From NCBI GenBank assembly GCA_026168455.1, contig CM047426.1, positions 89,989,986-90,053,985 on the forward strand: DNA of 64,000 nt. The letters are read 5' to 3'. Origin of the DNA: Theocolax elegans (lineage: Eukaryota; Arthropoda; Insecta; Hymenoptera; Cerocephalidae). Of the stretch, positions 14,591-46,914 are shown piece by piece. The notes below the pieces were generated by a model that did not search any database, was not told where the DNA came from, and saw nothing but the letters and a program-made list of their open reading frames with translations. The first letter of the stretch is position 1. Each line of letters begins with the position of its first letter. The position numbers were made by a program, and so were the translations under genes.

Positions 14591-14636
14591 CGATATTTAA
14601 TACTTATATTTTTCTTCTTTATGATTTCAGGTGAGT
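14591..14636 (+). other. Recursive splice site 1 (ratchet point, zero-length exon)
   Basis: A complete 3' splice site is fused to a complete 5' splice site, with the junction after 14630. Upstream lies a pyrimidine-rich stretch (14607-14620), then TATGATTTCAG, then GTGAGTC. No AG dinucleotide occurs between 14591 and the acceptor AG, so a branch point near TTTAAT (about 14596-14601) would use this AG first. In known recursive splicing, the upstream exon is joined here, which recreates a strong donor at the junction and allows the next intron segment to be removed. No exon sequence remains in the mRNA. The same 17-mer recurs at the second and third sites. The structure is seen directly; use of the site in splicing is inferred from the known architecture. 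The host gene is unknown. Confidence 0.8.
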
Positions 14637-14719
14637 CAAACGCAAATCCCTGGCTTTCCAGAGATAAAAGTTTATCGCACGCAGGGAATAAACATTGTAT
14701 TTTTCATTCTACATACTGG
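14631..14719 (+). other. Possible recursive-splicing exon after site 1
   Basis: After the ratchet point the sequence has higher complexity and GC for about 70 bases, then returns to AT-rich intron. A possible second donor, CTGG|GTATTT, would close an 89-base exon. Reading frames beginning GTG and GAG (offsets 0 and 2) stay open across it, while offset 1 hits TGA at once. In known cases such an exon is defined first and then normally skipped because the regenerated donor outcompetes the second one. The donor is weak and its choice is uncertain. Confidence 0.3.
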
Positions 14720-17700
14720 GTATTTACTTTTAAAATTTATATATTTACATGTATTCGTATATCTTTTTTAACATATGTATTTTTTTAAATTATAACATTT
14801 TCTAGACAGTTAAATTAATTCTTTCCTACTATTATGTGTTACAAATTAAAATATATAAACAGTAAAATATGTAGAGACGATTTTACTATATGTGACTGCT
14901 TATGAAATATAATTCAATTGTCTTTTGCCTTGTATAAAAAATGTTTAAATAGTACCTAGCATAATATAATTAATATAACAAAATAAATACTTTTTGTAAT
15001 AGTCACATTGAATTATATGGAAACAAAAATTAATTTTAAAAAATGATTTGAATGGTAAATAATTAATATAAAATTTTTTGATATGATATATTGTAACAAG
15101 AAATGAAGTTATCAAGTTGCCTGAGGATCGATCACTTTTTAACATCTTTGTTTTTAAAAAGTTACCTATACCGTTTCGAAGTATTAATTATTTTTGCCAA
15201 TGATCGATGAAACGGAAACTGTACGTTCAGTAAATTAGCAATTACTAACATAATACTTAAATTTTTATTTAGCCTATTAATTATTTAACTGGATTAATTG
15301 TATTAACTCCAAGTAAAATAATAATATTTCAAAAGTAGAAAATCTATTTTACTTTATATCACCTTATTTTATTTACGTTAATTAATTCACTTCTCGAAGA
15401 ATGAAGTAAGGAAAAACAAAAGAGTTTGCGCAGGTACATTAATCTTTCTAACAATCTCACTTGTATAGGCTACCCCACAATCATGGCGATAAAATACTGA
15501 AAAGAGCCACTTATATCAATGAAAAATGAACTGTATAAAACAATATCGAGAAAGAGAGAAAGAGAGAAAGAGAAGGCCCTTATATACATCAGCATTAAAG
15601 AATTCAGGGTTAAGAATAAGAAGCGCGCGAGCGTAAGAAGAACGAAAAGAGAGAGAAAGAAGGGAGGGACGAAAAACCTGTTTCGCGTAGCCGCCCACGC
15701 GAGCATTATACACTCTCTCTTTCTTTTTTCTCTTGCATATTCGGCACGGAAGAGGAGGCAAAACGATGGCAACAAAACCGCGACGCGATGCATCCGGTCC
15801 GACGCGGTTTCCTTTGCTCGTACTCGAGCGTGTGTTTGCGCGCGCGCGTGCGCGTCTCTCTCGTTATTAACGACTTTGGAAATTAACCCAAGCGGTTTCT
15901 TCTACCTGAGCTCTTTTACGACACCCATCGAGTTTCGGGAGTCAGGAAACACTGCGCTCGCGCTCCCAAATAATCCCGTAAAATTATTGTCATTTTAAGG
16001 ATTTCTATATGTCACGTTTACATCGTAAAAGTATATATAGCTTTACGTTCACCGATTTTATGCGTTAAAAATTTGTGCTATAAAGTTGTATAAAACAGCT
16101 ATTACCAGTAATTGCGGTATGTTACACTTTACACTGTGTATTTGCATTAACCAAATGATATTTTGAGTGTGATCGTTGTTACTGTTCAAGCAAACGATTA
16201 AAATAACTAACAAATTTCGTATCTTCTTTCGACAATAAACTTCATGTTTTATCATTACTTTGAAAAACTAAGACAGAGGGAGAAAATGAATTAAGTATAT
16301 TTATATTCGCGAAATAAAATGATAGGAGGTTAAGTGAAACAAGTTTATGGAAAGCATAAGCCACTCGATTGGACCTATCAGAAAAATCCACTCATGTGCG
16401 AGCGCGCGTATAACTTTTATCGCTTCGAGACTCGTGTGTAGGGTGTATATGTGTGTACGTATAGCCGCAAAGCTTGGACGATTCATCTCTCGGAACTCAA
16501 AACTACCGCGAGTACGCGCGAGCCTCAAGACAGCCTTTTTCCCCCCTCCTATTTATCACAACTTTCATTTATCACTGGTACGAACCGCTTCGCGATATAC
16601 ATCACGGTGATATCTACCTTCCTTCTCTGTACCATCCTTATTTACCATCCTCTCTCGGACCAGCGGCGATCCTCTCTCACTCCTGACGTAAGACCGCGGA
16701 ATTACGAAGCGCGGGAGAGAAACCGTCGGTATTTTATTTTGTATTATTTTTTTCTCTCTGGTGTTATACCCACATGGTCACCATAAACATTCTCAGAAAC
16801 GAGTATATGTAATCCTTTTATTTTTGTTTATAATATTAAATTCCGTTGAATAATATCTTTTTCTGAGTTATAGTCGAATTAAATTATCTCCTGTGTAATT
16901 ATTGGGATTGCTGGTCGTGTTTATTTGATCGTGCGATATTTACACCTTGGATTTAAATTTACATACGAGATGTCGATTGATTTCTCTCGATTTTGTTTTT
17001 AATTGTGTTAAAAATTGTACAAACGATTGTAGTTTTCTAAGTAGTTTTAATTTTATTAATAAGAGAAATGAATTTATATTATACGCGACTTAGTTTAACC
17101 AACTATAAACTGAAAATAAATTTTTTTGGCTAAATACTAAAACTAATAATCAAATCAAGCCAAGTACATGGGGTAACACAACTCTAGGATAGGACATCAT
17201 ACCAAGGGAAAGTTATACAACAGGGTCGAGGTTCAGGTTGTTTCGGTCTTGCCTCAAGTTTACCTCGCTTGTTGCATAATTCCTTGCGCCACGAGATAGG
17301 CAAGACTATAGAGTATGTAGGAAATCAGAATCGCGAAATCCGTCTGTTAAAGTTTGCCGTTGAACAAGTTTTCGGTAATCCCTTTAGGGTGCGATATATA
17401 TCAGGGAAGGATTTTTATCTCTTTCGTCTACTCGAAAGGGTTTCATTCAAAAGTGGACGAATCAACTTTCCTACATTTTAACCGTATACGTTACCAATCA
17501 TTATTTCTTTTCTATTTTTGATAATTACGCTATTTAATTAATGTTGAGCAATTTATTTTATTGAATTTCTCTGGTTTCCTTAGTAACATATATATTTTTA
17601 AATGGTGTACTTTGGGTTAATATTTATAACGTATATCGGATTTTGTTAATATTACAATATTGCGCGAATCGACTGAATTTGTAAGTTTTTATATAAATAA

Positions 17701-18275
17701 TTCACTATCACGTTTTGCATTTGCGAATAAATAATATATTTCGAGAATCACATAATATAAAAAAAATCCATACGTTTGCTTCACTTGCACGATCCAGTTG
17801 AATATTTAAGAAAAAAAAATGGAAGTCTTTTATCAGAGATCAATAAATATTTCTTAGTAAAGGATGAATCGTAGGAAATTGAGTCGCTCCAGTTTCGAGA
17901 ACATTAAATAATGCGAAACGACGAAAAATCCCCGTATAGTCGATCGAGCGCAAACTTTTTCAATTCGAGCGGATCCAGTCCCGTTAAAAATAATCCGGAT
18001 CGGCGCGAGCCAAACCACTTCTTGGTCCCAGCGCTTGTGTACCGATAAGAAGCCTATATGTCCAAAGGAGAAAGAGAGAGATAGAGAGCTTGCAGCTTCG
18101 TCGGGAAGAAGGTGAATATCCCTTAATGTATATATCGGCGCTCGCGTGCAGTCGCGTGCCAAAGTGAAGAGACTAAAAATATCCGCGCGCAGACTCGATA
18201 AAAGCCCGATTCGAGAGCAGACCCGCAGGCTTCGACGGTTTTCTCGCTTCAACATATTTTCTTTTTTTTTACTTT

Positions 18276-18280
<5 letters not shown>

Positions 18281-18340
<60 letters not shown>
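18281..18340. repeat. Perfect (TC)30 microsatellite
   Basis: Sixty bases of uninterrupted TC, the longest perfect dinucleotide tract in the window. It is a GAGA-factor-type sequence on the other strand. Confidence 0.97.
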
Positions 18341-18346
<6 letters not shown>

Positions 18347-19489
18347 CTTTATAAGCGGAGTGGTGTGTATCGCTTCTCATATTCCGTGGTGATGCTTTGT
18401 GCGAGATTGTCGGATGGGTACTTCTTCGGTGCTTACTTTTTGAGATGTTTGGTTCAAAGATTGCGGTGGCTTTTTGTAGAAGAAATTTTACAAAGCCTAC
18501 TTTTGCTATACAGCGAGATAAAGAAAATACTACCTCTTATTCATAAGAAGAAAATTAAACTTATTTAGATAAAAATAATTAAATTCATAAAAATTATTTG
18601 TTTATTCAGATATTTTTTATCGACATTTTGATTACATAATCGAACAACGGTGCATCTTTTTAATTACCTTCTTGTCGATCGTATTAAATAGTTATTTCTA
18701 TATGTCACTTAAATGTATCAGTTTCTTTTCAATAATAATTAAGCAAAAACACAAAATGATACGAAACTTAAGCAGAAAATAATCTGAAGAAAAAAGCGTT
18801 AATATACTATGTAAAATATTATTATTATTGACATATATTAGTCACATTATATCTTTTCTAAAAGTAATATTAATAAAATAAAACTGCGTTACCACATTAG
18901 TAAACTTTAAAATGTACAACAAACGTATAAAGTTGTGATACGACACTAAATTGCATTATCGCTATAAAATACACAAGATATTTTTATCCTTAAGATTTTA
19001 TAAGAAATGCCATGTCTCTTGCGTTAATAGAATGTAAATGTATTCACTTCCTTTTAAGCACGCAACGTTTCTACGTTCGCGAGATGTATTAAAATTTCCG
19101 GAAGTCATTTTTTGTTAACTAAGTAAATTAACATTACGAAAAAGAAAATGTAATTCTGCTCTAGTTGTTGCAGAATTTTTTTTTCACACCAACTTTTTAT
19201 ATCACGTTAAAAAGGGAATATCGATACGTGGTAATCAGAAATAAAATGATGAATTAATAGAGAAAAAAAAAGTGTACATGAATAATAAATTACTTTATAC
19301 ATTGTTAATACTTATAAAAATAATTAACGCGCATTTAGTTGCATTAAAAATTAACTGTCTGTACTATACGTAAAATATGGAACAAGAATATTGACTTTTT
19401 AAATTCAAATGAAGAATAATTGAATTAACAAAAGCTACATTCTTTTAGAGTGTCGAATTGTGTGTAAGTATAGCACATATGGAACCAGA

Positions 19490-19735
19490 AATTTGAAAGC
19501 TCATATTCGTATGGACACAGGGGAGTATTCGCAAGCTCATTCACAAGTGGTACCAAAAAAATGATAGCATTCATTTGCATATGCGTATACTCCTCGATGG
19601 AATCAATTTTTATACTGAGCGCATCGTCGCTCGATCGTTTCGGTAGATTAAGCTTTCGCGCAATTACTCGACGATAAACTTCAATGACGTGTTTGCTATG
19701 GTATATCCGGTTTATCGGCTCTTAATTTCTAAAAG
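19490..19735. promoter_or_regulatory. Complex patch with POU-octamer motif
   Basis: It contains ATTTGCATATGC (octamer-type POU site at 19573-19580), a TGACGT core (CRE-like) near 19684, and a TAGATTAAGC bicoid/Otx-type motif near 19645, in sequence more complex than the flanks. Single motifs like these are common; the clustering is the only support. Confidence 0.2.
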
Positions 19736-20718
19736 GGGAAAAAATTATTTCATTGCTTCAATGGAGATTAATAATTTGAATTCGTCAGGTTATTTTTTAC
19801 AAGATTTTTTTGTTAATTGAAATAACAAGAATTACTCGGTACTTAAAATAACACTCTAAACTCTAGACAAGATTCTTTGTTTATATTAATGTACAATATG
19901 ATACTAAATAAATAATAAAATTATGTTTATAATTGGTAAGAGTAGATTTTTTAAGCGAATCCATTATTTTACAATATATACGAGGTAATTATCAATTCAG
20001 TTTTAGAAAATGTTGCTATAAAAAAATTATGACACACGTAATCAAGTAAATAAAGTAAATCTTATTTATAGGTCTAGTTTACGCGCATTTATAGCTTAAG
20101 ATTATTTTTATATCTAAATAGCTTATAAATTAGCAATGTAAAAATTATGTAGTAGTAAAGTTTATATTTAACATGATATTACGTAATTATATATAAATCT
20201 ATAAATTATAAAGTATTAATAAAATTATATTTTTATCAACGTTATCAACTTATTCTGTTTTTCTTTGTAAGATAATTTAAACGGAAAATTATTTTCGCAA
20301 TTAAACAATTTATTTAATATTTAATCTTAAGTATCTAATAGTTTTATATATTTTTATTTATTATGAAAGTCCAAATGTAAATCATTAAAATCAACTAAAC
20401 TTTTCTTACTCTTATCAAAACATATACGTATAGAACCTGTGCAGGGAACAAAAAAAATAAAGAATAGCGATCTTCTCATAGTTGGGCGTTAGGTCAAGGC
20501 CTTCGAGACAAAAGGTATAAACGTCGCGTGACTTTGTAATTTTTTTCTCAACTCGTGGAAAGTCGTCGGAAAATTCATCTTCGACTGTATCGCGTGACCC
20601 TTGCGATCGTTTTCCGGACGCGTGCGTGAGCCTAATGTTCGTGTGGCTTTTTTTTCGAGAATCCCGTAATATCCAAAATTAATATTAGCTTTGAGAATAC
20701 AAGTGGCAAGACCAAGAT

Positions 20719-20777
20719 TACTAATCACGGAATTTTTCGGCATTTTTCCGAGTATTCAGCAGTAGTCATCGGTGAGT
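20719..20777 (+). other. Possible 12-base microexon with branch site
   Basis: A perfect TACTAAT branch-site motif (20719-20725) is followed by a T-rich tract (20731-20749), an acceptor TTCAG ending at 20759, twelve bases (20760-20771), then a strong donor CG|GTGAGTT at 20772. The exon length is a multiple of three. One frame contains TAG, and another would insert Ser-Ser-His within a split-codon context. A nearer AG at 20751-20752 could instead give a 19-base exon. The site lies almost midway between ratchet points 1 and 2. The order of the elements is seen; use as an exon is a guess. Confidence 0.3.
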
Positions 20778-23700
20778 TAAAGAAACATTTTTCTCATGCT
20801 CAGTACGATGAAGGGAGTTGTAACGGTAAGAAGTACCGTGCGTCATAATTGTTGGATATTCTCGTAGATATGAATATTACCGGGTGTTGTCGTAATAGTT
20901 ACTAAATTTTGAAATTTTCTTAACTTGTCTTCCATGAGATCGGAGGTTACGAGTTTCTGTAATTAGTGCCTTATGCGCGTTTACTTACAACTTGCCTTAT
21001 TTTTGTGAATATTAAGAAATATTTGCTCGCTCGGGTCGTTTTACTTTACAAAAGCAAGCATGAATAGTTTAATTTAAAAGTTTCAAGTGCTGCATTTACC
21101 ATACTTTATTTGAATTGTCACCGCATACAAATTTATTGTATAATATTCTAACTCTACATGACATTAATCGTCTTAGTCCTATGTAAAATAAAATGAATAT
21201 CTTTTTATTGTTGAACATTTCAGGGAAATACATCACTCTAATGTATCCATAAAACTCTAATTACTAATCAAGTTTCATTTTACCTAAATCTCATCACATA
21301 TAAATCGTACGCACGGTCGAAAATAAAGAATAAAAAAGTACATAACGTATCATTAAAATTTTAAATAAATGAATGTCCAGGAAAAATTTTCTGGAACAAC
21401 GAAACATTCCTCAAGTCCTCGAAATCATTTTCTCGAACGCACAAATTGACGGTTACCCAAGCCACCGCCCTCTTTTCTCCATACACGCATATACATGTAT
21501 AAAAAAAATACATACGCCGTATAATAAAACGACTGTTTACGAGCGGTTAATGCTTTCGGCCCAGAGTTCGCGATAAATTAGCCTAGTCGTCGACGACTTT
21601 CTCTCCACAGATAAAGAGTGACTTTTCGCACGTGCTTCTAACATGACCCTCTATGGGTTCTCCTTTTTTGGTATATATCTATATATGTGTACTGGTACAT
21701 GCAAAAGGCTGTGATTTTTCTAAACATTGTTATCGAGTATCGCGAAGGAAGTTTAGCGCGCTTCGAGTGTATGGAAATTTCGAAAGTTACGTGCGACAAT
21801 ATGGGCGCTATTAGTTCACTCTTGATACAGTACGAGTTGACAGGTTAACCTGATCATTCATTTTTATTAGACTTGCTGTAGTTGATACGTTGAGTTTAAA
21901 TATTTCGAAGTTACATAATGCACCACCGTTTTGAAAATATAATATAGAATTTATTTATAAATTATTTTTCCATTGCCCTTAGTAAATATAAATATAATTA
22001 AGTGCAATTAAGTATAAATTTTATAATTATTTTTTTCTTTCTAACACAATTTCGATGTACATATATTAACTTTTTCTTTTAATTATTGTTCTTAATTTGG
22101 TAATTAAAAAAAAACACTTGCGATCAATATAAATATAATTTGAATTATTTTTAATAATATTCTTGAGATATAAAAATAAAATAAACGAGGTCAATCAAAA
22201 AGTCCATTACCAGTAAATTGAAGTAGTATAAAAAAAGTGTTTAATCTTATTTTCGAATGAAGGTACAAAATTTAGTTAAAATTTTTCAACCAATAAAATT
22301 TTTGCGAAACGATATGAAGTAAGTTTGAAAAAGAGGTCACCTAAAAATGAAAAAATATGAAAATTAATCCTCGCGTAGAATCCGTAAAATTTAATTTTAC
22401 AGTTAAACACAATTTAAAAAACTATATGATAATGAATTGTGATCAAATCTAATAAAAAGTAGAGACAAAACGAAACGCGTATAATAGTCCAAGGTCGATC
22501 ATTATACGTATGATAAACATTCCACAACAAATATTTGGACACAACGAAATTGAGATAAAACTGATTTTAGTCAACACTACCGATGAAAATCTCGTGATCA
22601 TCTCGTATGAATTTTCCCCGAAGTTCGTCGTGGAAAAGAGAGAAGGTGGTGGAGGAGGTTTGACCTTCCCCTCGCGACATTTAATCAAGGAGGGCACGAC
22701 CGTAGGTGTTAACCCCATTTCCACCCGACTCGGCCGAGCGGTTTTCATCTCTTGCGAGAGTAGTATGTCCTCGCGGAAAAACAAACTTGTCGAGTTGATT
22801 GTATTATCGGTGTGAAATATATTCGCCCTGCGAAATTGACTCGAGTGGCAACGATGACGTTGAAATTGACTTGATTTACTCGGGCTTACGCGCGTACTTT
22901 CCAAGCTTTTATCGTGAAAACGCGCCTCTGGATATATAGAATTATGCTGTTTATTTTACGCGTATAAATAAAACGTTTCCTGGATTTTGTAACGCAGTTT
23001 GTTAAATTATCATTTCACTCGGTTTTTTTTCCGATAAATTTTATAATGTACGTAACATTGGAACGTTGTTTATTACGTGTTATACAGAAAAATATATTCA
23101 CGTCTCTTTTATCCAAGATAGAAATTTTATAACCTATTTTTAGCACGCTTTATTAAATTGTTTCGCGACATTGATAATCCAATTATTTTTATTATTTAAT
23201 AGTTACCTAGTTTATTCGTACCTTTTTATTTCGAAATAAATTCTAGAAATTTATTTACTAATTTCAAGTTAAGCGCGTCGATTCTCTGTCCGTGACATTT
23301 CAACCTTGTTTAACAAAAATTAAATGTTAATTTGTAGTTACAGGACGCTTTCAAAAATCAAATTTTATCTCTTTGTGCCGTTTTATAAATTAATTTCTTT
23401 TATAATACGAACATTTTTTTAAATTATTTTTTATATTATATAAAAAATGTAAAATATTGCATTTGCGAAATGCGCGCGGTGTTGTATAAAATGATTATAT
23501 AACTTTAATTAGTTAAAATGTATGTTTGACAAACGTGAAATTACTAATAAACACAGTTGATCAACAATAAATAAATAAGAACTGCACACTGCATTCTAAT
23601 AAGTAATATTACATATACCCTATAGCTTAACAAAATTTCCCGAGAATTTCCCTGGAACTTTAGAGAAGGGGAGAAGAAAAAGAAAGGAAAGTTCGTCACT

Positions 23701-23999
23701 TAACTCCTTCGTTCGATTATCACTTTGCGAAGCACAAAAGACTCGCAGTATGTATGTGTGTGTGTATATATATATACATCCCGTACAAATATTTACTTGG
23801 CACACATACACATCAGAAGCAAAACTTGGCCCGTACCGATATTTAACTCTTCTTCTTCACGAGCCAGTATCCACGCTATAAGAACCAGGAAGCAATCCGT
23901 TATTCGCTACTTTTCACGTCAATCTATATAGATATACACACCGAGGTTCGAAAATGTAGATAGCTATAAATGTGTGGAATCCCAGAGGGTCGTCGTCGT

Positions 24000-24240
24000 C
24001 GTTGATTCTCAAATTGAATTTCGCAAATTGACATTGGGTGTCGCGAGGATGCATCCCAGATACGGAAGAAGGACGATGTAGAGCCGATTGCTTGTAAATA
24101 ATTATCGTCCCTTCGAGAGGAGACTACGTTTATTAGATAGGCTGGTTCGGTCGATGTACTTGCCCGAATTACGCTGGGACTCGGGTTCGGATGAATTTAG
24201 TTTACCGAAGCTCAGATAAACACCTGGGATGCTTAACGAA
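24000..24240. promoter_or_regulatory. Complex patch, possible enhancer
   Basis: A short GTC triplet run (about 23989-24003) is followed by about 230 bases of high-complexity, GC-richer DNA. GATA-type motifs (TTAGATAGG, CAGATAAAC) and a homeodomain-type AATAATTAT motif occur within it. There is no useful open frame. Confidence 0.18.
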
Positions 24241-27220
24241 TTTCCACTTTCTTATCTTTTAACTTTGCCATCAATTTCGATTCCGAAATTGTTTGTTTAT
24301 CTACACGTTTACGATATAACTACGTGATTATACACACAGATAATTGCAAGTTTAAACTTTGTCATTAGTATTGCTAACTTTAACGAATGACTGAAAAAAA
24401 AGGTTTAATTGATTAAAGTTAGCGTTTTAATACGACTTTAAATTGTTACTTTAACAACAATAAACTTTTTTCCTTTTTCTTTAAATTTGTTCGATTTCAC
24501 GTAGAAAGGTTTACGCAACATTTACTTTCGACGAAAATAAATGTACGTGCAAGTAGTTTACCAGATTTCTATTTACGATACGTGTAAAATAAGTAACGTT
24601 TAAATATTTATTGTAAAAACATTTTATTATCGTATTTACTTAATATTGAACAAAATATATTCAGGTATTTAATCTGTAGATTCGTAGATGTAATTCAATG
24701 AAAATACCAGAAAAGTCAAAAGAGAAGATCGAGTGATAAATGATGTTCGGATTCGAATCGTCTCCAACTTTTCGCAAATAGATCGACCGATCCGTTTAAT
24801 GAGGTTTATCGCCATTCGAATATATACATATATACACTGCGCCTATATCTGCTTCAACTTTTCCGAAAAATTCCTTTGAAAAGGGAACACTTGTAGAAGG
24901 CATCTCTTGATGGGCTTTTCAACTACTTCCCCCTCGTTTATTTCGTTGCGTTGCCTCCACCCTCTCGCGTTACTCGGACTTGAAAAGCCAAACTCGACGG
25001 ATCTCCTTATAATTTGCTCGACTGGAAAATGTTGTGAAAGAACACTTTTTTCCTCGTCATTCTTTTTTTTTCTACACCCTTGAGTGTATTTTGTATAGAT
25101 TATCTTCCCTTTTTTAGACTCATTATCTTGCGCTAATCGATATAGAGGGAGTGTAAGAATAAATGATCTCTGGATTGGACGTTCGCTTTGTGGAGGTATA
25201 ATAAAACTAGGTGTATTTTGTAAGCATCATTCGTTATTTAAATGTAAAAAGCTCAAATATTTTCTTTTAATTCATATTAAAGTTGTTCTTCTAAAATTTT
25301 AGTAGATTAAATTTGTATTTCAATTTGTACAATCGATCGAATAAACTCGCCCGCGGAAGAGAATAATTAACGAAAACAAACGAGTAGACAAATTCTTACT
25401 TAATCTCACGAATTAATCACCAAATCTGCATAAACTATTCCGAGAACCGAAAATTCAAAACACAACTTAGTATTGTAAATATTTAACGAAACGAACGTTT
25501 CCAAATGAAAATGAGTATAAGTACAAAAAAATTAGTCAAAGCGTACGTATGTCAACAAGTATCGAATATAAAATCAACAGTACAACAGTATTTAAATAAG
25601 ACGAAAATTTATATTCCGTAAAACAATGTAAAAGTGTCCGCGTGGCGAGATTTATGAATCGACAGGTCGAAATTGTTCACCTATATAAAAGATCCCTATT
25701 GTCCGTGATTAGCGCGAGTAAAAGCTCGAGAGCGATGCGTGCCTTTAGACGCATATCTTTGTGCATGTGACGATCGTAAATCACAATCAGCCCAGTTTCG
25801 AGGCAAGAAATTTCTCTTTGTCTCATTGTGATTACGGGAAAATGACACGGTTGCGATACGGTTTCAGAGAGAAGCAATTAGAATCATCCTCTACTTTATC
25901 TATCTCTCTTCAACAAACTTCTCTTAGAATTTCACGAAATTATATAGGCGTAATTTTCGATTTCGCTATCATCTCCTTGTGTGAGAAACGTTTCTTTGTT
26001 TATTTATTAACTTTTTTTTAAAACTCTCGTTATTAAGTAATTGTTTACATAGATATACAATAATTATAGTGCAATTTTAATGCGTGGGATACTAGGTACA
26101 ATGTTTCCAATGCAATATTTTAACTTATTATGCATTTTATTTATATTTTCCTTCTCTGTAAAAAACGTTGTAGTTCTCTATAGAATAATAATGATCGCTT
26201 TCTATGTAGTTTGTTAAATTTAATATTAGTTTATCTGGAGATTTAAATATTCATATTTTTACATTATTTTCATTGCAAAATATTCCACGGTTTACTAATG
26301 TGTGTGGTCTAATTATGGATTTAGAACAAAATCAAAATGTGTGCAGTTTGCCAGATGAAAGTTATACAAAATTTCAGATAACTGGATAGAAAAAAATGTG
26401 ATGCATTCAATAAATAATGATTAATTACAATAAATAAATATTTTTATCAATTAAAATTAATGAATTATATTTAATAATAAATATTATTTAAATTTAAAAT
26501 TAAAATAAATTATATTTTATAATAAATAATTAAATGATTAAATTTGAAAGAAATTAAGTAAAAGACATTGTTATTACCAAGATTGTACTGTCCGACATCG
26601 TAATTCGGAAATTAGATGTTTAATCATCGGTAATTACCAAGAGACCGTAATAATCGAAACGATTGGTAACACGAACATAATATTTTTCCCCCAAACAACC
26701 TCGTGAAAATCATAATACGCGTGAACCCATAGGTATAATACACGTTGAGATACACGCGATAACCGCGTCACCGCCTCACCCGTATAATTCGCCAATTTGT
26801 ATGCCGTACGAATAGACGTTCCTTTCCCCCCTTCTCCCTCTTTCTCTCCCTCTCTCCCTCTGTCTCTCTTCTGAAGTACAGATCGTAAAGTATGTTATAA
26901 AACGCGAACCTCGCCAGCCTTATTCAATTAAAACGGATCGCTTGCGTCACAGCAGAACAGCCTCTCTTTTTTGTCTTCCAATGCGTCTCGTCACAGAAAA
27001 ATCGTGTTTTGGTTTTTAAGCACGCATCTCGCTTTTCGTTTTGTAGGGAAGAAACGAAGGTCGAAACTACTGGTTTTTTAAGAGGGGTATGAAGCTTTTG
27101 CTTTATCGACGTCAATTAGCGTCATGCGCGTTTATTGCTAATACGAGAGTTAGAATTTTATTTGTAAGAGAGAAGCTGGAAAAAGTGAAAATACTTTGCT
27201 TCACATTTCACGGAGTTTCT

Positions 27221-27265
27221 GCATTTCAAAATTAATTGTACGCTTTTGTATGATTTCAGGTGAGT
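27221..27265 (+). other. Recursive splice site 2 (ratchet point, zero-length exon)
   Basis: The junction lies after 27259, where TATGATTTCAG meets GTGAGTC. The upstream 35-40 bases are T-rich and contain no AG, and TTAATT at about 27232-27237 is a possible branch region. The 17 bases around the junction match sites 1 and 3 exactly, and the match to site 1 extends one base further into the donor (GTGAGTC). The site lies 12,629 bases downstream of site 1 on the same strand, so it would end the second segment of a stepwise-removed intron. A lone AG|GTGAGT could be chance. A 17-base identity at three places, each with a proper acceptor context, is not credible as chance. Confidence 0.8.
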
Positions 27266-27349
27266 CGCATATAGACGTAACGAGGTTGTTACTCGTGGTC
27301 ATCGTTGTTACGGACGACTATTGATTTCATCCCAAAAAAAAACTACACG
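27260..27349 (+). other. Possible recursive-splicing exon after site 2
   Basis: Ninety bases of mixed-complexity sequence follow the ratchet point and end at CACG|GTAATA, a moderate donor. All three frames hit a stop before the donor (TGA immediately in one, TAG about five codons in for another, TGA near the end for the third). If retained it would be a poison exon. Site 4 has a similar donor ending (ACACG|GTATAT), which gives slight support to the pattern. Confidence 0.35.
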
Positions 27350-29129: not shown

Positions 29130-29450
29130 CACATAGAGTTATTCGAGTCTCGGCGCGGGAAAGCAACAGTTTCGCGCTAGCGCGGCGTATACACAGAAAC
29201 GCGCGGGGGCACAAGGGGACTGTATAGTAAACCGAGTGGCTTGTTTATGGCGGGCCGCAGTTGCTCTTGGTGCGGAGTCGAGTTTATAATGCCATAACGA
29301 TGCCTTTGTGCACTACTGCGACGTTGTCCTTTGTTGGCTCGCACTGGTTTACCGATTTCTGATTGTCGCTCGGTACTTCCATTTTCCGGGAGCTTCTGAT
29401 AATGCCGTTGTTTAATTTCAAACAGCTTTTTCATGGCGTTCACGTGTGAG
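29130..29450. promoter_or_regulatory. Complex GC-richer patch with Hox/Cdx-type motif
   Basis: It holds GTTTATGGC (29243-29251), a posterior Hox/Cdx-type core that recurs in the 38.2 kb patch, and CCTTTGTTGG (SOX-type). A CA repeat lies at its left edge. The minus-strand open frame across it (29177-29443) is Gln/Arg-rich and unrecognised. A conserved non-coding element seems likelier than a gene. Confidence 0.2.
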
Positions 29451-29932: not shown

Positions 29933-29940
29933 TTTCTCTA

Positions 29941-29975
<35 letters not shown>

Positions 29976-29988
29976 GCTCTTCTCTCTG
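29933..29988. repeat. Interrupted CT microsatellite
   Basis: CT dinucleotides with a few T, A and G interruptions. Confidence 0.95.
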
Positions 29989-33002: not shown

Positions 33003-33025
33003 TATATATATATATATATATATAT
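33003..33025. repeat. TA microsatellite
   Basis: Eleven or so TA units. Confidence 0.95.
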
Positions 33026-36000: not shown

Positions 36001-36040
36001 ATTAAAAAAACACTTTTCATTGATCAACGAACAAATTTAT

Positions 36041-36089
36041 AATGAAAATATTTGACAATGGCTTCATTTTTTTATGATTTCAGGTGAGT
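36041..36089 (+). other. Recursive splice site 3 (ratchet point, zero-length exon)
   Basis: The junction lies after 36083. The acceptor has an unbroken seven-to-eight T run (about 36067-36073), then TATGATTTCAG, joined directly to GTGAGTT. There is no AG for more than 60 bases upstream, giving a long AG-exclusion zone, and TTTATAAT at about 36034-36041 is a possible branch region. The 17-mer is identical to sites 1 and 2. It lies 8,824 bases from site 2. In known recursive splicing such a site is used once the previous segment has been removed, and the regenerated donor (exon end plus GTGAGT) then attacks the next acceptor. The sequence shows the site directly; its use is inferred. Confidence 0.8.
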
Positions 36090-36136
36090 TCGTTTGGCGA
36101 CCGAAAAGCATCTAGAAATGAAATTTGCGTTTTATC
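36084..36136 (+). other. Possible recursive-splicing exon after site 3
   Basis: Fifty-three bases separate the ratchet point from TATC|GTACGT, a moderate donor inside a run of alternating GTAC/GTATAC sequence. One frame stays open, one hits TGA at the junction, and one hits TAG. Beyond the donor the sequence becomes (TA/CA)-rich low-complexity intron. The exon is predicted only from position and a donor-like hexamer. Confidence 0.25.
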
Positions 36137-37955
36137 GTACGTATACGTATACACACATATAGATATATATACATAAACAAATATCTACATATGTCTATAT
36201 GTATTTGTAATAGTATTTAATAGCAGTTTTATGTTCTTTTATTTTGGCTTGTCATTAATTTCGTTTGACATTTTAATTAAATAGTTGATTGTTTTACGTG
36301 AAAAAAAAACCAAAAATATAAATGTCGTTGTAAATATAAATAACTCTTAACGATGAGAAACAGTAAACACAAATGGTAAAACAATTTTTTTTATAAATTT
36401 TGTTTATTGAAATGTTATACGTTAAGTACGTATAACCTTAAAATAAATAAGTATACCGAATAAGTAACGTAAAAAAAATGAGCATAATCTAGGAAAAAGG
36501 AAAGAAAGAAGCGCGAGTTACACGCAGGAGAATCTCGTAGTTAAGCCAGGACAGGTCAGCCAAATTAGCGTAGGTCAAAAAAGGTCGAAAAGATAGAATT
36601 CGCGTGTGTCTGTGTGTTTTACGTGTCTCTATCCATACCGGGGATAAACTCGCGCTAGTTTCGTGCACACACAAGCGCCATCGGAAGACCAACGACTAAT
36701 CGCAGAGAGCCGCTCGGTCAAATATTTACCGAAGCCTCTCGCCCGTAAATCGCCCGTCGTACGTGTTATCCTCCTCGATTGCTCGAGTCCCCTTCTCGCG
36801 TATATACACCAAGGTAACCCTCTTCCTCGCACGTGTGATACTTACTATACGTTTTGTAGGTTAATTTTGATTAGACGTATACGCGCTGATAAAACGGATA
36901 ACGTAAAAATCGAGCGGTCAGTTATTCCTTTTTTCTGTTTTTCATTTCTACGCGACTCTAAAAGTCTGTGTAATATTTCGTTGAATTTAGGTTTAATTGG
37001 TTGTAGATAAGAATTACTAATATTTAGGTAAAATTTAACGTGTGTAAGGCAACACATAATTACGTAAGCCGTTCATATATATCACTTTGGTGCATATTTA
37101 AGACACGTGTTATTTCCTATTAAATATGTAATAATATATAAAATATAGTATTATTACCCAACACGATATTACGATCTCGAGTTATTTTAGATACGAACAA
37201 AACTTTTCTAATCACGTAGCAAAACTAATGTTTCATCAAGATATTTCTTTATTTTGCCTCTTTTAGCGTAATTATCTTGGTAAATTTCATCATTTCGTGT
37301 GGGATTTCAATCTAAATCCAATTTTATCTACGCGATACGAGTTAACATCGCTGTAGATTCCCATCCCCTTATTCTGTGAGCTCGCAACACCATACTTACT
37401 CGTCATCTCGTTAATTTACTTTTTCTTCGGTTATTTCTAACTTTTCCCAGATTGTTCTTTACCCTTTTAATTACGGAGCTCTCTTTACCTCTATACGTTT
37501 CATATCTGCGCGTATAACACGTCCATTTCGAAAAATAAAATTTCGTTGATGTACGAGGTTCTTTGTCTCGCATCTTGAATTTAAAAGCTACCTGATAAAC
37601 TTCTCGATCTAATCCAACGTCAAAGCGCATTTTCCTCCATACCGGAATAAAGTTCGATCAATCTTCCGATGGTGAAATTGCGGAAAACCGCATTCTCCAT
37701 ATTCTCGCGCGCTCTCGTCCGCATTATAATATTCTCTTGCGGTGAGAGAAGGAGAGGAGCATCGACTCGTAAATTCATCCCTCGTTTTCTTTATTATTTC
37801 TTTTTTCGCCAAGTCTATTGTTCGCCAAGATCCCTCAATTTTTATTCCGCGATATTATAGCTTTTTATCTAGTTTATTCAAATTTATATTTATCGCGTAA
37901 GTGCACATATATATATATATGCTCGGGAATACCATTTTAATTCAATAAAAATCAG

Positions 37956-38042
37956 TTGGATATTAATATGAGAAATTCAAGTTATAACTCGGATAATCTT
38001 CTGTCGCAAAATCTCAAATTTACTTACTCCAAAAGACGGCTG
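37956..38042 (+). CDS. Possible small coding exon (unrecognised, low confidence)
   Basis: An 87-base stretch is flanked by ATCAG on the left and a strong donor CTG|GTAAGTGAG on the right. It is open in one frame for exactly 29 codons (beginning Leu-Asp-Ile-Asn-Met, ending Ser-Lys-Arg-Arg-Leu), so it would be a phase-0 cassette exon. The predicted peptide is rich in Ser and Asn and matches nothing I know. The acceptor is poor because the bases before the CAG are A-rich. A chance match of a good donor to a short open frame is the main alternative. Confidence 0.15.
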
Positions 38043-38149
38043 GTAAGTGAGAAAGAGAGAGAGGGAGAGAAAAATCTCTCTCCCCCTGTATATATATATA
38101 GGTTTGCCGATAACGAAGCGAGCGCGGAAAAACGGTTTAGTTGAAATCC

Positions 38150-38290
38150 GTGATTAACTCGCCTTAAAATAACATCGCCCGGGCTTTAGTCGTCGTTTAC
38201 GTCGTTTATGGCTTTATTTCGCGCACGAGCCGCGCATTGGATTAAGCCGACCTGCGGGAAATGAGCTGCTTTAGGCAAAAACTAAATATG
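38150..38290. promoter_or_regulatory. Complex patch with Hox/Cdx-type and Otx-type motifs
   Basis: It contains CGTTTATGGC (about 38203-38212), GGATTAAGC (bicoid/Otx-type) and a CGCCCGGGC palindrome in about 140 bases of non-repetitive, GC-richer DNA. It lies just downstream of the possible 87-base exon at 37.96 kb. Function is inferred from motifs only. Confidence 0.2.
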
Positions 38291-40349
38291 GATAAAAGGT
38301 TAAAGGATAACGAAGAAAAATGCGATAGATTTTTCAATATAGTATAGTGGTTAACAAATTTTTCTTTCCCTCATTTTCATTTTACTTTCTTTTTAATTTC
38401 TAAGAGAGTTACGGCTTAATCCTCCTATGTATTAGCATGATTTTTAAATGCGCCCGTCAGTATTTATTAATAGGTAGATATTTCATTAATGTAAAATTAA
38501 TATCCTGGATATTGTACAAATGTTGAAAAGTGATATTATACTTTTATGTTTTATTGCAAAATCAAATGTATAATTAAAAAAGTTAATTAATATCCTCAGT
38601 AGTGCAGAGGATTTGCGTATTATACAAGTATATACATAGATGTATTAAGTGAACACGAAATTATTCCCTTCAAATTAAAAATTTATAATTATGATAATAA
38701 TTTAATATGCCGAATTATTACGTGTGTATCGAAAGAAAAATAGGTCATCAATGAATAATAATGTAATGATTTGCAAAGATGTTTTCTAATACAAATGTTG
38801 TACTTGCAACATCCAGATTATCTGTAAATTATAAAATAAACGCCTATATACTGCACGAGAAAGATACTTCAAAATGTCTTACCATTAATCGATATAAATT
38901 CCTGAGATAAAATATAATTTATGTACATTGAAAGACGTCTTAATATACGCGAGTTTTAACGTAAATATCAGTACAGGTAGTATAGTATATATAAAATATT
39001 ACAATTATCAAGTACGACAATTGAGTAGGCGAAGATATCGGAATGCCTCCACACGACGGTCGTTGTTACTTCGGGCCTCAGTTTGTCGCTTGCTACGATC
39101 GTCGATGCTCTACAGGTGTGCACTTTACGCCTCTTGGCAAAGCCTCTGCATTAACTAACCCTCTCTATTTTTTTTCGCCTTGCGCTTACACAAGCGTTTA
39201 CTGAAAAGCCTCTTTGTCGAACCGGTCGAGCTTGCGAAACAAGCTTAAACGATAATTTCTAACACTTTAACAATTTTCATACAACACGTCGATAATCCTT
39301 ATTGAATTTTAAGTTTTACAACTAGTCTTAATTATAATAATGTAAGCTACACATTAATGTCTAAACTTCTTTTTCATACTCGGTATTATTGTTACGAAAA
39401 TAAGCTATAAATCATCACATTTTCATTTAAATTGTATTTCGTTTTTGAGTTTAACAATAAAAAAGTAATTTCGAACGTGTAATTGAAATTTTGTCTTACA
39501 ACCATGTTACAAGGAATTTAATTTATATTAACTATATACAATGTGTATTATTTAAATACTGTTGCTTAACATTCCTTGGCGTGAAACAAATACTTTTCAT
39601 TCGGAGAATCTAATATAACATTCTAAAGTTAAGTATTTCATTATACAACAATGTATTCAATGAATCGTATATAGAAACATAAAAAGCTACTCTTTAAATC
39701 AATTAGTAATAGCAAAAAATTTGCATTTATATAATTAATTATGCGATTAGATAAATTTTTTGAACATCATAATTATACGCGAATGTCTATTGTTCAAAGA
39801 TTTAGAAACATATAGAAAAAACTGATTAATACCGGAACAAAAGCACAATAATTGTAGGCATATCAAACCAAGCGTGATGCATTAAAACCTCATTAGAATC
39901 GATAAACCACGTGGTCCGTAATTACTGAAAAGAATAAATGACGATCGCTTCCTCGTTGTCATTTGTTGTTATTGTTGTTATTATTTTTTTTCTTCAATCC
40001 TACCACTGTTCAATTCGATACATATATGCATATATATATGTTTATCCACACATACACACATCGTACTTCCGCGTTTACGAGGAATATAAAAGTGTTTTAT
40101 CAAATATTTACACATGTCATCGTTTACAGTACGGGCCCGTTTAAATTTATACGCATTTCCTTCGACGCTCATGCGAATAAACTTCCCGACGACTTATCTC
40201 GCAAGCAATAAACTGACGGTTTCAAGGTTACGTGAGGTTACTAACCGCAAGAGAGGCTAAAAATTCAATTTTCCCGAGAGACAAATTCTTCTTTTTTCGG
40301 TTTTTTTTTCAACTTCTTTTTTTTAATCAGTGGATATAGATTTGGTCTT

Positions 40350-40570
40350 AATTGATGAATCGCGCCCGGGTAAAAACTCTCAAACTCAATGGTGCGCTCG
40401 CGGAAACATTAATTACTTTAATGAGCTTAATGGAAATCCCGCCTTTAGCGTCACTACTTGATGCTCCTTTTGGAATTGCCCATTTCCGTTGGATAAATTT
40501 ATTTTATTCTCTCGCGAAAATCGTCGATTTAATTCGTTTTTTTTTTGCTTCGAATATTACCTTTGTAAAA
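40350..40570. promoter_or_regulatory. Homeodomain-motif cluster
   Basis: Within 26 bases (40408-40433) there are three TAAT-core sites: ATTAATTA, TTAATGAG and TTAATGG. They lie inside a 200-base patch of higher complexity. The 82-residue + frame across the patch resembles no known protein. A homeodomain-bound intronic element is the reading offered. Confidence 0.22.
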
Positions 40571-43240
40571 GTGACGATTAACACTTGTTTCTTCGATTAA
40601 TCGATAATAAATACATTTTTTAATTGGTTTCATAAAACCCAAAATTTATTAATTAAATGTAATTGTACAACAGTGTTATCTTTTATATAAAAACGGATGA
40701 AAAAATGTATTTATAGTATTAAACAAATTTTTTGTTTGTTGATACACAGCACTACTAGCATGGCGTTGCAAATAAAATAGATTCTGTTTGTATCAATCAG
40801 AATCCTGGATGTTATTTTTATAAAATCCGTCTGACTGATAGCTATGTTCATCTTTCTGGACCGACTAGTTTGATAAAAAAAATTTAAGTTTGAAGGAATG
40901 TATTTTTAAAAAATATATATCTGCATATGATGTTTAAAGAAACTACTTTTATACTTTAAAGTTAACAATTCTCTATAGTCATTAACGCGCTCAAATAGTA
41001 AATTGTATTAATTAATTTAATAATAATAGTTTTGAATATGTTATACTTACGAACCTCACCTCCCACGTTTATTGTAACAGAACAAAATTTGAATACGACA
41101 TTAAAATTCTTAGGTAATTCTAATCAAACAATGAGAAACGATTTCAGAATAAAGAATAACTCTCGTAATACTTTGAGGTACAACACTTTAAAAATTACTC
41201 GAATATACGCAAAACAATTTGAAATTCTTAACCGAGGACAATGCGTCAACTTTTACATACATACGTTCTTACAAAGCACAGTTGATTTCCACGTTACCGT
41301 GCGTATTTTCAAAGCAAAGTTCAATAGCGTCGGAAGTGTTTGGAGTACAAAAAAAATCTGGAAAGAAAAAAGGAGACGAGGAAGTGTAAAAAAAAAGAGA
41401 ATGAAATAACTCGTATACTCGCGGTCACGTAACCCTGCGAAACCGTTCACCTTGTGTAGCATGATGATTCACTCGTTCCATCTTCTTTCTTCTGTATGGA
41501 CACATCGGTTACGTTCTCTCGCAAATACCAAACAATTTGTTTTCACACAATTTTCGGTACGCTACGTGGGTTGTTATATAAAACATTCTCGCAAGCGTGT
41601 AATGTTCGCTCTTTTTTTGTATTTTCTTAAATTAAGTTGTTGTAATAATTTATTAAGATTGTATCTTTAAATTGGTCGTTAAGTATAATTAAATGTATTT
41701 AGATAAATGATAATCTGTGCGTCGTCTGCAATCTTAAAAAGGCGGTTTTAACCACTCTTTTTATACACACCCACACATCCAGCTATAATTCAATTATAAC
41801 ACGTTAAGAATATATACATATATACATCGTATAATCGGTTTTCCAAATATTTACTTTTTAGTCAATATGTAACTTGGAAACTTTGCACGTACTCGCAGTT
41901 TCCACGATCAGAATGTTACAACTTAATCTATAGTGTATCATTGAGAAATTGGTTCTTAACAACTAATACGTTGACTTGATTAACGTGTTGTGACTTGTTA
42001 AACGTGTGTGCACTAAATTCAATTATTATTATCACTGACAAGGTTTATCGAGATCCAAATTACTTATTGTTACTTTGATATTTATTCTTCAAACAATACG
42101 ATACTATAAAAAAACGTGTACAATTTGATTAATTATACAGTTTACGCGTGTAACATTAACCAAGATTTGCAGATCACGTTGTACAAAAAAAAATTGTTGT
42201 TTCAATCCCTACGTGTAAACATATTGAATGCCTGAACGTCAAGGGTTGGAATACAAACCGATCGGTAGTAGAGATCGGTGAATAGCTAATTTTCAAAATT
42301 ACAGACCATCAACGCGAGCTAACAAAACTAAACGCATAAAACAAATAGAGAAAGGAGAGTAAAAAAAAAAGAACAACAAAAATGAAGTTTGTTAAACCGA
42401 CGAGTGTATACGCAAACGCTATCAGTCGTGTGATCGTACAACCAATCGCGTCTATTACCTTGTCACTTTGCTTACATATACGATAATATAGTCTTTTTGC
42501 GTGAACGTTGACCAATTTAGAAAAGAATGTTGAGAAGCGAATAAATTGCCGAGTCTCGTGTGTTGCCGTCGTTGAGCGTTTACGCGAATTCTCATGACGC
42601 TAAACGGTATCTAAAAAATTGACCTTTTTTTAGTGTACACACACAGAGAGAGAGAGACACGAGTTAAAGTAGTGATTGATCATCCTCTGGTAAAATCGTT
42701 CGTAAGCTATTTCTATGAAGCAACGTTATACGGTGTAAATAAATCGTTACACTTATTTATTTCGCGTGTTTAAGAATGATACTGATGTTTAGCTCGCGTA
42801 GTCGCTATAAATTACATGGACTTTATGTACGTGTTCTATAAAGTTTTATGAAAAAAAGGAAGGATGTAATATATATTAAATTTCTTTTTGTGCGCTAACA
42901 AAAATAATATTTTATACCAAAATAGACCGACAAAACGGGCGAATAAATTCATCAGACAAGAGATTAGAAAAAATTAAAAGGTAAAAATAACAAACCATGA
43001 GAGTTCACCGTAATAATACCTCTACAAACGCGCGAGAACCACGAGAGGTTCTTTAATTCCGAGCATCAGCTGTTAGGTGCGAGAGCAACAAAAAAAACGA
43101 ATGAACGAAAGAAAAAGAAAACAAGGAACAAAAAATAAAAGAATCGGGAAATCCACTTTGTCTATTCGCTAAGTGCGAGGTGATGTTTAATTCATCGAAC
43201 TCACCGCAAAGTCGTCCGATGGTACAGAAGCACTCTCCCG

Positions 43241-43271
43241 CACGCGCGCGCGCGCGTGTGTGTGTGTGTGT
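43241..43271. repeat. CG-to-TG alternating purine-pyrimidine tract
   Basis: A pure CG dinucleotide run continues without a break into a TG run. Such alternating tracts favour Z-DNA; the CG-to-TG transition also fits CpG decay by methylation and deamination. Confidence 0.93.
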
Positions 43272-44517
43272 ATACGAGTATACAGTAGTCACGCATTATG
43301 AATATTTATAAAATTCGCCAAATCGAAGTAGTAAGTAGAGTTGCCCCTCGAAACGAAACGTTTTCCATTAGCACGTTCATACAATGTTATATCAATTGAG
43401 GAAATGATGATTTACTTAAATCAAATGTAACGCACATTTTAATCGTTTATACGTACAAGTACGTAGGTAAAAGTAAGAAGAAAAGTAAAAAAAAATGTTA
43501 GATATATTTACCGAGATTCGATAAAATTACGAAAACGTTCGATCATTGTTTGTCCGAGCATAAAGGATTCGGTTTAATTTATTAATGTTCCACTATTTGT
43601 CATTTCCCACGTGTGTGATGCGGTGGATATATCTATATAGGAGCAATTAAACGGGATCGAACGATCCATCATTCTTGGTATTTTTCTATACCGTGCAGAT
43701 ATCTCAATATAAGACGTAAACGTTGCGACGATTAAAAAGTCACGACGGAAAATACGTGCTCGTTCGTTTTGGATACAAAAAAAATTGTATATATATATAG
43801 AAACGTACGAAACAATGATTGATTGAGTTAAACTCATGGTATTACTTACTTTCTTTTTTTTTCGGGGATGTTCGCGATAAAGGGTGATTCATAATTATCG
43901 TTTTCAACGGCTGTCTCAAGGTGTGTATGTGTATGTGTGCGCGTATGTGTGTCCACGTTTTAATGAAATCCATCAATCAGTAGTCCATCGATCAATATTC
44001 CAAATCACCTTAAACGCGGGAAACCGAGAAGTTCGAATAAAAAGTCGAGGGTACAATTCGGTGTGTCTTGAAGAAAAAAAGGGGGAAAATCCATTGTTGT
44101 CTTTTGAATTATCGATACATATACATGTTTTCTGAAAATATTGTAAGCCCTGTGTTAGTATTCACGAAATGATTTTTTTATCAATTAATAATTTATGAAA
44201 ATATTGTTGTTAGTGCAGAAGAAAGTTACAATAAACGTAAAATACGTTGAAATACTTATTATTACTCGATGAAAAGATTATTTTAAATCGCTTTACAATA
44301 CTTATAACGTACGAATTTTATTTCTCGTATAAGGTTCGTTGTATATCGAATTCGTATGAATCACCTATGGCTGTAAGTATTATACGTTTAACCGCAAATT
44401 AAACCACTGTAAAACTTTTATAAATCTTGTTATTAAATAATATATTGATTCCAGTCAAACGAAATAAAATACAGCTAAAATTTATACACATATACGATCT
44501 TCAATTCATTTCGATTA

Positions 44518-44536
44518 AATTCAATTTAATTGAATT
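44518..44536. repeat. Perfect short palindrome
   Basis: AATTCAATT and its exact reverse complement AATTGAATT are separated by one T. Confidence 0.85.
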
Positions 44537-45259
44537 GCCAATTTTACTGTGTTTATATATACAATTTAAGAGATTCGAGGAAAATTAATAATTACTCATT
44601 TTTTTATGAATTCGTAAATGTCGGAAGTAGATAGTTAATAATAAATTTGGTAAAAAAAATTTGAATAAATATCGATTAATAGGATGATACTGGACTATTT
44701 TAAATAGTTGTATTATTAGGGAAATTTATACGCTCTAGTGGAATTTCAATCCAAATAAATAAGGAGAATTAAGTAGTTACAGACGCAGCACATAAACGAC
44801 AGAGATATACCACGGCGAGACATTAAGAGAGAAAGATAGCGAGGGCTTTAGATTTAAATTTAGATAGCTTTATTAATGTCGGGATTTTAATGTACCTAAA
44901 CACAATGGTTTTACATACTAAAGTATATATAAAGTATTAAATATGTCAACCAACTGATGGCCATGATTTATATTGATGTGCATCACGCTGACGTTAATAC
45001 GTTTTATTTATGTTATTTTTTTTAACGTTTGCGTATCAGTCGATAAGAATTTTATTAAAAATCCACACGACGCCAACGCAGATCTAGATGAGAAGAATTA
45101 AATAAATTATTATTTATGTATTAATGATCTTTCAAAAAAATATGTGTATCATTAAAAAATAAAAATAACATACCGATTAAACGTATAATAAAATACGAAA
45201 TACAGAAAATTCAGCTACCATAACAGTTCGCACCTTAAAATGTCGATTCACCGCGTTGT

Positions 45260-45655
45260 GCGTAGGGCTTAACTTGTACAAGGGTAGAGGTGGAAGAGGA
45301 GGAGGGGAGGTGTAGAACCGAGAAGCGCGGGGGAGAGAAGTTCGCGCGACCCGATCAATATCGCGCTTAGGTTGGGGAGGCGGTGAGGGGAATAGGGGGG
45401 GAGGCAGTACGGGCATGGTGGGGGGAGGGGGAGGAAGTCCGCCTACCAGTCGGGGGGTGCGCGCAAGAGCGAGAGAGAAAGGGAGAAGAGGAGATCGATG
45501 CCGGGTGAATCGGCCGGCGACAGAGAGCGCAAGCGGTGACCTTCCGCGCCTGAAGTTCGCCCAAGTACACTGACCTCGCCGTCGTCGGTCTACTCTCCCC
45601 CCTCCCCCCCTCTTTCTCTCTCCCTCTCTATTTCTCTCTTTCTCTTCATACTCAG
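45260..45655. promoter_or_regulatory. GC-rich island with G-rich and CT-rich tracts
   Basis: A sharp GC-rich block in AT-rich DNA. G-runs and AG-rich sequence fill 45290-45500, and C/CT-rich sequence lies at 45590-45645. The G-rich + strand has several runs of three or more G and could form G-quadruplexes. The 181-codon minus-strand open frame across it encodes only Pro/Arg/Ser low-complexity sequence and is a product of composition. Confidence 0.35.
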
Positions 45656-46868
45656 GGGTTTGAAAAAAATCGTCGGCGATGTGCCCTATGTAAGAGGGGG
45701 GATATAAGAGGAAAAGTTTCAAGTTTTTCTGATTTATCGGGTCTAGTAGTTTGGGTGACTGGTTGTTTTGGTTATCGAATGGACATTAGTATAGAGAATA
45801 TGTCTGTATATATACGTGTTTAGTTTTTTAAATTTATGTTGTTTTATGGGTGCATATCGCAGGTTGTTAATACTGAGGAAGTCAAATTTGTCTATTTGTA
45901 GTAATTAAACGTTTAATAATTAATGGGTTTAATTAGTATACGTTGTGTATTCGTAATTAGCGAGTAATTAATTATATTTATTATTTTAAGGATTATTAGT
46001 TTTGCACGTTACTTTTATTGCTTAAAATTGCATTTGTCACTGTCGCAATTAAAAGTTTATTGTGTATGCTATGTGTACATATGAAAGTTCTGGTACATCA
46101 ATTATTGAAATGATTTAATGAATATTACCGCACGTGAAAAGCATTGTACAAATTATTTTCAACAAGATCATTTTCTAATAGTCCATAAAATTTATACTTT
46201 GTTTATTCTAATTTAAAGTACTCCCGAACATAAAAAATACAATATATATTAACCAAGATAAAATTAGTTTTATCAAATATGACATTAAAATAATTTTCTA
46301 GCTACAAGGACTAATTTTATAAATTCATTTTATAAATTCAATATCGTATAAATTAATTTTTTAATTAAAATTAGAATTATATTAAGTATAATACCACTAT
46401 ATTTAAACCCATAAATTTATTGATTCTATATCGTCTAATGAGAAGCTAAATACCAAAAATTTTAAACATGCACGGAATATATTCAATTGAATCGTGGAAA
46501 CTTAGTAAAACGAGGTGAAATTGAGGATGACGTTGATTTCGAGAACGCAGTGACAATTGTATATACCTTGACTCGCTATCGAGATTTATAGGAAATAACA
46601 TGTTTTATCATAAATCGTTTTAATTTTATGATAATTTTTTTTAATGTACTTGTCAAATTAATTAAATAAAAAATCGGAGATCATTATTTATTTAAATATA
46701 AGCGATCAAAAATTTAATCATATTAAATTTCCGTAATTCTTTTTTTATTTAATTAAAAATCATGTACGTTATATTCAACTTTTAATTAAACAAAATTTTT
46801 CATAGTATAATGACTAATCATTATTTATCAAATTAAAAATTTAGCGATGAATTATTTGAAACATCCAT

Positions 46869-46914
46869 TCGTTGCCTCTTAATTACCATCTATTTTATAT
46901 TTTTTCAGGTGAGT
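46869..46914 (+). other. Recursive splice site 4 (ratchet point, zero-length exon)
   Basis: The junction lies after 46908: a T-rich tract ending TTTTTTCAG is joined directly to GTGAGTGAGG. CTTAAT at about 46878-46883 is a good insect-type branch-site candidate, about 25-30 bases upstream, with no AG in between. This site differs from the other three in the acceptor (TTTTTT instead of TATGATTT) but keeps CAG|GTGAGT. It lies 10,825 bases downstream of site 3. The purine-rich bases after it (GAGGAG, GGAAGGGG) resemble exonic splicing enhancers, which fits exon definition during recursive splicing. The next acceptor in the chain was not identified with confidence in the remaining 17 kb. Confidence 0.75.

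Follow-up and report, generated by a model that had tools for sequence, protein, structure and literature searches.

Four fused acceptor-donor junctions in a 64-kb stretch of the Theocolax elegans genome as probable ratchet points for recursive splicing

Could a giant intron in a hymenopteran be removed piece by piece, as long fly introns are, and would its DNA betray the sites at which this happens? The question is raised by a stretch of 64,000 nucleotides from Theocolax elegans (GCA_026168455.1, CM047426.1, positions 89,989,986-90,053,985, forward strand; hereafter the window), in which a sequence-only reading had proposed four recursive splice sites, each a fused acceptor-donor junction CAG/GTGAGT (the slash marks the junction), within one intron that exceeds 46 kb. 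According to our analysis, the four junctions act as ratchet points in recursive splicing with a probability of about 85%, an assignment that finds sequence support in branch-point-like motifs at all four sites, in GC blocks behind them and in a fly-like spacing.

The four CAG/GTGAGT junctions were confirmed and fall after 14630, 27259, 36083 and 46908 (sites 1 to 4), all of them on the + strand. The underlying word CAGGTGAGT, which starts at 14628, 27257, 36081 and 46906, has no further copy on either strand of the window, and with 4 occurrences on + and 0 on − it displays the one-strand excess looked for in ratchet points. Dinucleotide shuffling yielded a mean of 0.06 copies and a maximum of 3, with at least four copies in 0/100 shuffles. 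When a combined acceptor and donor matrix was applied to the 302 AGGT sites of both strands, the four sites took ranks 1, 2, 3 and 5, and random sequences of Markov orders 1-4 (150 of each) contained an average of 0.09-0.25 sites per strand matching the weakest of the four (maximum 2). Scored as donors over nine bases (-3 to +6), they top the 3,461 GT sites of the + strand and outscore all 3,300 of the − strand (200 bases at each window end were excluded), a ranking that partly reflects the acceptor, because the CAG scored there belongs to the acceptor too. By their six intron bases alone, the four sites belong to a group of 47 GTRAGT words (19 on +, 28 on −); a YAG precedes 4/19 of these on + and 1/28 on −, the latter, at 62737, being the one extra match to the relaxed pattern YAGGTRAGT.

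Upstream of the junctions, a U-rich tract and an AG-free zone had been claimed for all four sites: the AG-free zones of sites 1-4 are 73, 42, 95 and 62 nt long, and the pyrimidine fraction in the 20 nt preceding the CAG is 0.80, 0.65, 0.75 and 0.80. All four sites have the form (Y)nNCAG/GTRAGT that defines an intronic ratchet point, with a weak tract at site 2. Moreover, a candidate branch-point motif of the form YTRAY lies between -42 and -16 at 4/4 sites, compared with 37/170 acceptor-like sites (a set that includes the four) and 22.6% of sampled positions. The A at -7 within TATGAT was dropped as a branch point, since an A at this position is too near the AG for use and candidates at -25 to -31 exist.

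Behind every junction lies a short block that is richer in GC than the DNA on either side, where GC is 0.23-0.32 in the 60 nt upstream of the junction and 0.13-0.23 in nt 61-120 downstream of it. The local contrast of sites 1-4 is equalled by 0.45%, 1.1%, 3.6% and 0.01% of window positions, respectively. In a set of 169 acceptor-like sites to which they themselves belong, sites 1-4 take ranks 2, 3, 10 and 1 for this contrast, and their mean contrast was reached in 0/100,000 draws of window positions and in 0/20,000 draws of acceptor-like sites. By analogy, the blocks fit the cryptic recursive-splicing exons (RS-exons) of Drosophila ratchet points, which Joseph 2021 (PMC8605326) describes as short, at about 50 nt, and variable in size, their downstream donor being beaten by the rebuilt one. 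For Bx and kuz of Drosophila, inclusion of the block is reported once the rebuilt donor is weakened. The donor that would be rebuilt here scores 9.05, against -2.2 to 0.5 for the downstream donors, in agreement with the donor-competition model of Joseph 2021. Another fusion on the + strand, CTCCTCCTGCGCCGCAG/GTACGT at 11147-11169 with its junction at 11164, has rank 4 of the 302 AGGT sites, above site 2 (27260); we excluded it as a fifth member of the chain because its surroundings are broadly GC-rich, without contrast of a downstream block.

Zero-nucleotide recursive splicing at ratchet points of Drosophila is reportedly the subject of work by Hatton in 1998, Burnette in 2005 and Duff in 2015. 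Applied to this locus, such a process would start on a transcript of the + strand with an upstream exon, either beyond the window or unrecognised in it, that is spliced first to the acceptor at 14630, a step that may be aided if the short GC-richer block behind the junction is defined as an exon. The joining would recreate a strong 5' splice site, exon/GTGAGT, able to win against the weak donor with which the block would end, and the same exon would next be joined to 27259, 36083 and 46908 in turn and then to the final exon, such that the mRNA would keep nothing of the blocks.

The junctions are separated by 12,629, 8,824 and 10,825 bases, as the sequence-only reading had it (8.8-12.6 kb), and these gaps are more even than expected (P 0.03, from three gaps and post hoc). 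According to Pai 2018 (PMC6110457), the segments into which recursive sites cut fly introns typically measure 9-15 kb, a range that the gaps of 12.6, 8.8 and 10.8 kb roughly fit, and a high-confidence recursive site is present in 63% of fly introns longer than 40 kb. The locus shares with Drosophila ratchet points the fused acceptor/donor in long non-coding DNA, the strong donor predicted to be rebuilt, a short block that may correspond to a cryptic RS-exon and the segment length, several sites per intron being possible in Drosophila. Giant introns are real in Hymenoptera, given that muscleblind is reported (PMC3315501) to have introns exceeding 180 kb in Nasonia and 700 kb in Apis. The composition of the window and its microsatellites suggest an insect, perhaps a hymenopteran.

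Is there any exon between the sites? None had been recognised before, and this was upheld by a Pfam search and by a search for splice-bounded exons. Filtering for at least 40 codons and an entropy of at least 3.75 retained 347 of the 688 open reading frames (ORFs) of at least 40 codons, and the 300 of these 347 that were run against Pfam gave no convincing match: at E <=0.01, Cornichon (0.0026), Fuz_longin_1 (0.007), DUF3915 (0.001) and CUB_M02D8_5_2nd (0.0095) were hit by one ORF each, and four families in 300 queries approximate the chance yield. A search for open exons bounded by splice signals found 7 frames, at 4 places, and these are weak, none of them convincing. A codon-composition scan gave frames scoring up to 61, whereas in 10 random sequences the best frame reached 12-18; the leading frames, rich in GC and for the most part low in complexity, were judged not credible as exons. 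Rfam at the gathering threshold and a tRNA search found no match in the window. This lack of recognisable exons agrees with a position deep inside an intron and would fit intergenic DNA as well. The sequence-only interpretation is partly supported: a single intron longer than 46 kb that holds all four sites is plausible and likely, but the bounding exon and the host gene were not found in the window.

Several points weigh against the assignment of the four sites to ratchet points. The ORF, Pfam and splice-exon searches within the window found neither bounding exon nor host gene. The splice matrices are our own approximations, built on general knowledge and used without training on this genome, and the GC-contrast and branch-point tests were designed after the sites had been inspected and so were not blind. 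As acceptors alone, the sites are good without being exceptional: site 4 and site 1 rank 13 and 14 of the 2,928 on the + strand, and sites 2 and 3 are not within the best 22; site 2, with its weak pyrimidine tract, has the lowest acceptor score (2.6 at 27260, versus 5.5-6.8 for the other three). The GC block is clear at sites 1, 2 and 4 but weak at site 3, and block GC taken by itself shows no more than a mild rise (for the mean, P 0.018 relative to window positions and 0.034 relative to acceptor-like sites; for single sites, 0.07-0.40). Finally, the best downstream donors, at +89, +90, +53 and +67, do not surpass those that follow control acceptors (for the mean, P 0.57), which leaves it uncertain where the putative RS-exons would end.

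Could the same observations arise in another way? The ratchet points might be spread over more than one intron, belonging to two transcription units or to a long non-coding transcript. The failure of the window searches to find a bounding exon leaves room for this, as does a GC-rich stretch at 54-58 kb that might be a promoter, but the single orientation, the similar spacing and the lack of a convincing exon between the sites make such a division unlikely. Alternatively, the junctions could be acceptors of short expressed exons whose first bases are GTGAGT and which some mRNAs retain, be they alternative exons or expressed RS-exons like m1 and m2 of Ubx. A GC-richer block does stand behind every junction, and at the assumed lengths a frame stays open through blocks 1 and 3; blocks 2 and 4, however, contain stop codons in all three frames at their assumed lengths, which speaks against coding exons, most of the lengths (89, 90, 53 and 67) are not divisible by three, and the downstream donors are weak. 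We regard this second alternative as improbable.

Two further explanations would deny the sites any role in splicing. Acceptor-like and donor-like words may fuse by chance in AT-rich DNA, and comparable scores are reached by single AGGT fusions in random sequence at the rate of 0.09-0.25 per strand, with the fusion at 11164 even outscoring site 2. It is nevertheless very improbable that chance placed four exact matches here, where 0.06 are expected and 0/100 shuffles gave as many, and accompanied them with branch-point-like motifs and GC blocks. CAGGTG is also the core of the E-box, and the word might then be a protein-binding DNA element of intronic or intergenic enhancers. The window holds 14 copies of CAGGTG (11 on +, 3 on −), but an E-box needs neither AGT behind it, nor a T-rich tract with TTT before it, nor an AG-free zone, nor a single orientation, and TTT before together with AGT behind is found at 4/14 CAGGTG, exactly at these four sites, so that this explanation appears extremely unlikely.

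The sequence TATGATTTCAG/GTGAGT is identical in sites 1-3, and site 4 carries TATATTTTTTCAG in its place. Within the window, TATGATTT has three copies on +, all of them at sites 1-3, and two on −, while CAGGTAAGT has 0 copies; among 166 other acceptor-like sites, the 8 nt preceding the YAG are identical in 3/13,695 pairs. Among sites 1-3, and also between 3 and 4, local alignment of the loci (+-500 bases) gave a best match limited to about -17..+7; the best alignments of pairs 1-4 and 2-4 lie elsewhere. As no alignment extends past about -17..+7, a longer recent duplication is unlikely, and an origin of the four loci as repeats or duplicates was rejected: their flanks are otherwise unrelated and all pair scores (29-39) are ordinary for random pairs, whose 5-95% interval is 23-43. 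Unlike the Drosophila consensus GTAAGT, all four sites read GTGAGT, and the fixed TATGATTT before the CAG of three sites is another difference from Drosophila. It is possible, if doubtful, that ratchet points of this lineage follow a fixed and extended code of their own, UAUGAUUUCAG/GUGAGU, in place of the generic pyrimidine tract and GUAAGU given for flies. If it did, a dedicated factor or a lineage-specific grammar would recognise recursive sites, beyond the mere fusion of a strong acceptor and a strong donor.

Recursive splice sites and RS-exons of vertebrates are said to have been described by Sibley and by Kelly in 2015. Recursive splicing has RNA proof in flies and vertebrates, and for other insects there is computed enrichment; no RNA-level study of it in a non-dipteran insect was recognisable from titles and abstracts in the open library searched. 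The sequence-only reading had called the chain a strong case outside Drosophila and vertebrates, which is overstated, because enrichment beyond these groups was computed in 2009. For large introns and their complementary strand, Shepard 2009 (PMC2773006) gives densities of ratchet-point sites (RP-sites), per 100 kb, of 0.484/0.122 in bee, 0.807/0.101 in beetle, 1.029/0 in mosquito, 0.540/0.066 in sea urchin and 2.196/0.101 in fly, and reports no such enrichment for vertebrate large introns (ratio <=1.5). The four sites resemble the computed RP-sites of bee, beetle, mosquito and sea urchin in their signal and in their excess over the complementary strand. Their density of 4 in 64 kb, or 6.25/100 kb, is about 13 times the bee mean, a comparison between different scoring schemes and with a window that was chosen for its sites. 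With vertebrate RS-exons they would share RS-exon definition followed by competition between the rebuilt and the downstream donor, and human recursive sites are described as lacking the Drosophila consensus. Very probably, the chain is a dense and clean instance of a known phenomenon, in which the density and the possible extended motif stand out. Four sharply defined sites offer a convenient test case for fly-like stepwise removal of giant introns, and the chain could also show whether the shared motif serves as a recognition code.

Table. Positions in the window of the four predicted ratchet points and of the candidate elements around them
Feature	Site	Positions	Strand	Remarks
Ratchet point	1	14614..14636	+	pyrimidine-rich tract; TATGATTTCAG/GTGAGT; junction after 14630
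Ratchet point	2	27243..27265	+	TATGATTTCAG/GTGAGT; poorest pyrimidine tract of the four; junction after 27259
Ratchet point	3	36067..36089	+	TATGATTTCAG/GTGAGT; junction after 36083
Ratchet point	4	46892..46914	+	TATATTTTTTCAG/GTGAGT; junction after 46908
Candidate branch-point motif TTAAT	1	14597..14601	+	A at -31; motif match only
Candidate branch-point motif TTAAT	2	27232..27236	+	A at -25; motif match only
Candidate branch-point motif TTGAC	3	36052..36056	+	A at -29; motif match only
Candidate branch-point motif TTAAT	4	46879..46883	+	A at -27; motif match only
Putative cryptic RS-exon	1	14631..14719	+	GC 0.44 in nt 7-60; far end uncertain, top downstream donor at +89 weak
Putative cryptic RS-exon	2	27260..27349	+	GC 0.48 in nt 7-60; downstream donor acg/GTAATA at +90
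Putative cryptic RS-exon	3	36084..36136	+	GC 0.39 in nt 7-60, faintest of the four; donor atc/GTACGT at +53
Putative cryptic RS-exon	4	46909..46975	+	GC 0.57 in nt 7-60, strongest of the four; donor acg/GTATAT at +67

Elsewhere in the window, a strong acceptor, TTTTTTTTTATTATCAG/GTGGAC, lies on the + strand at 61887-62087, 15.0 kb downstream of site 4; its junction at 61907 is the fifth best + acceptor and is followed by a GC-rich open frame to a TAA at 62060 and by AATAAA at 62082. A search for relatives of the open frame 61724-62059 returned 3 candidates, none at E <=0.01. This region may be a real exon or the 3' end of the intron that would hold the four sites. The stretch at 54001-58000 has a GC of 0.44, compared with 0.27-0.39 in the other 2-kb steps, and abounds in CT/GA and CGC repeats; it could be the promoter region of another transcript. 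On the − strand, a good donor at 43204, gacgactttgcg/GTGAGTTC, stands behind a GC-rich stretch (GC 0.67, contrast 0.31) and is a possible exon end on that strand.

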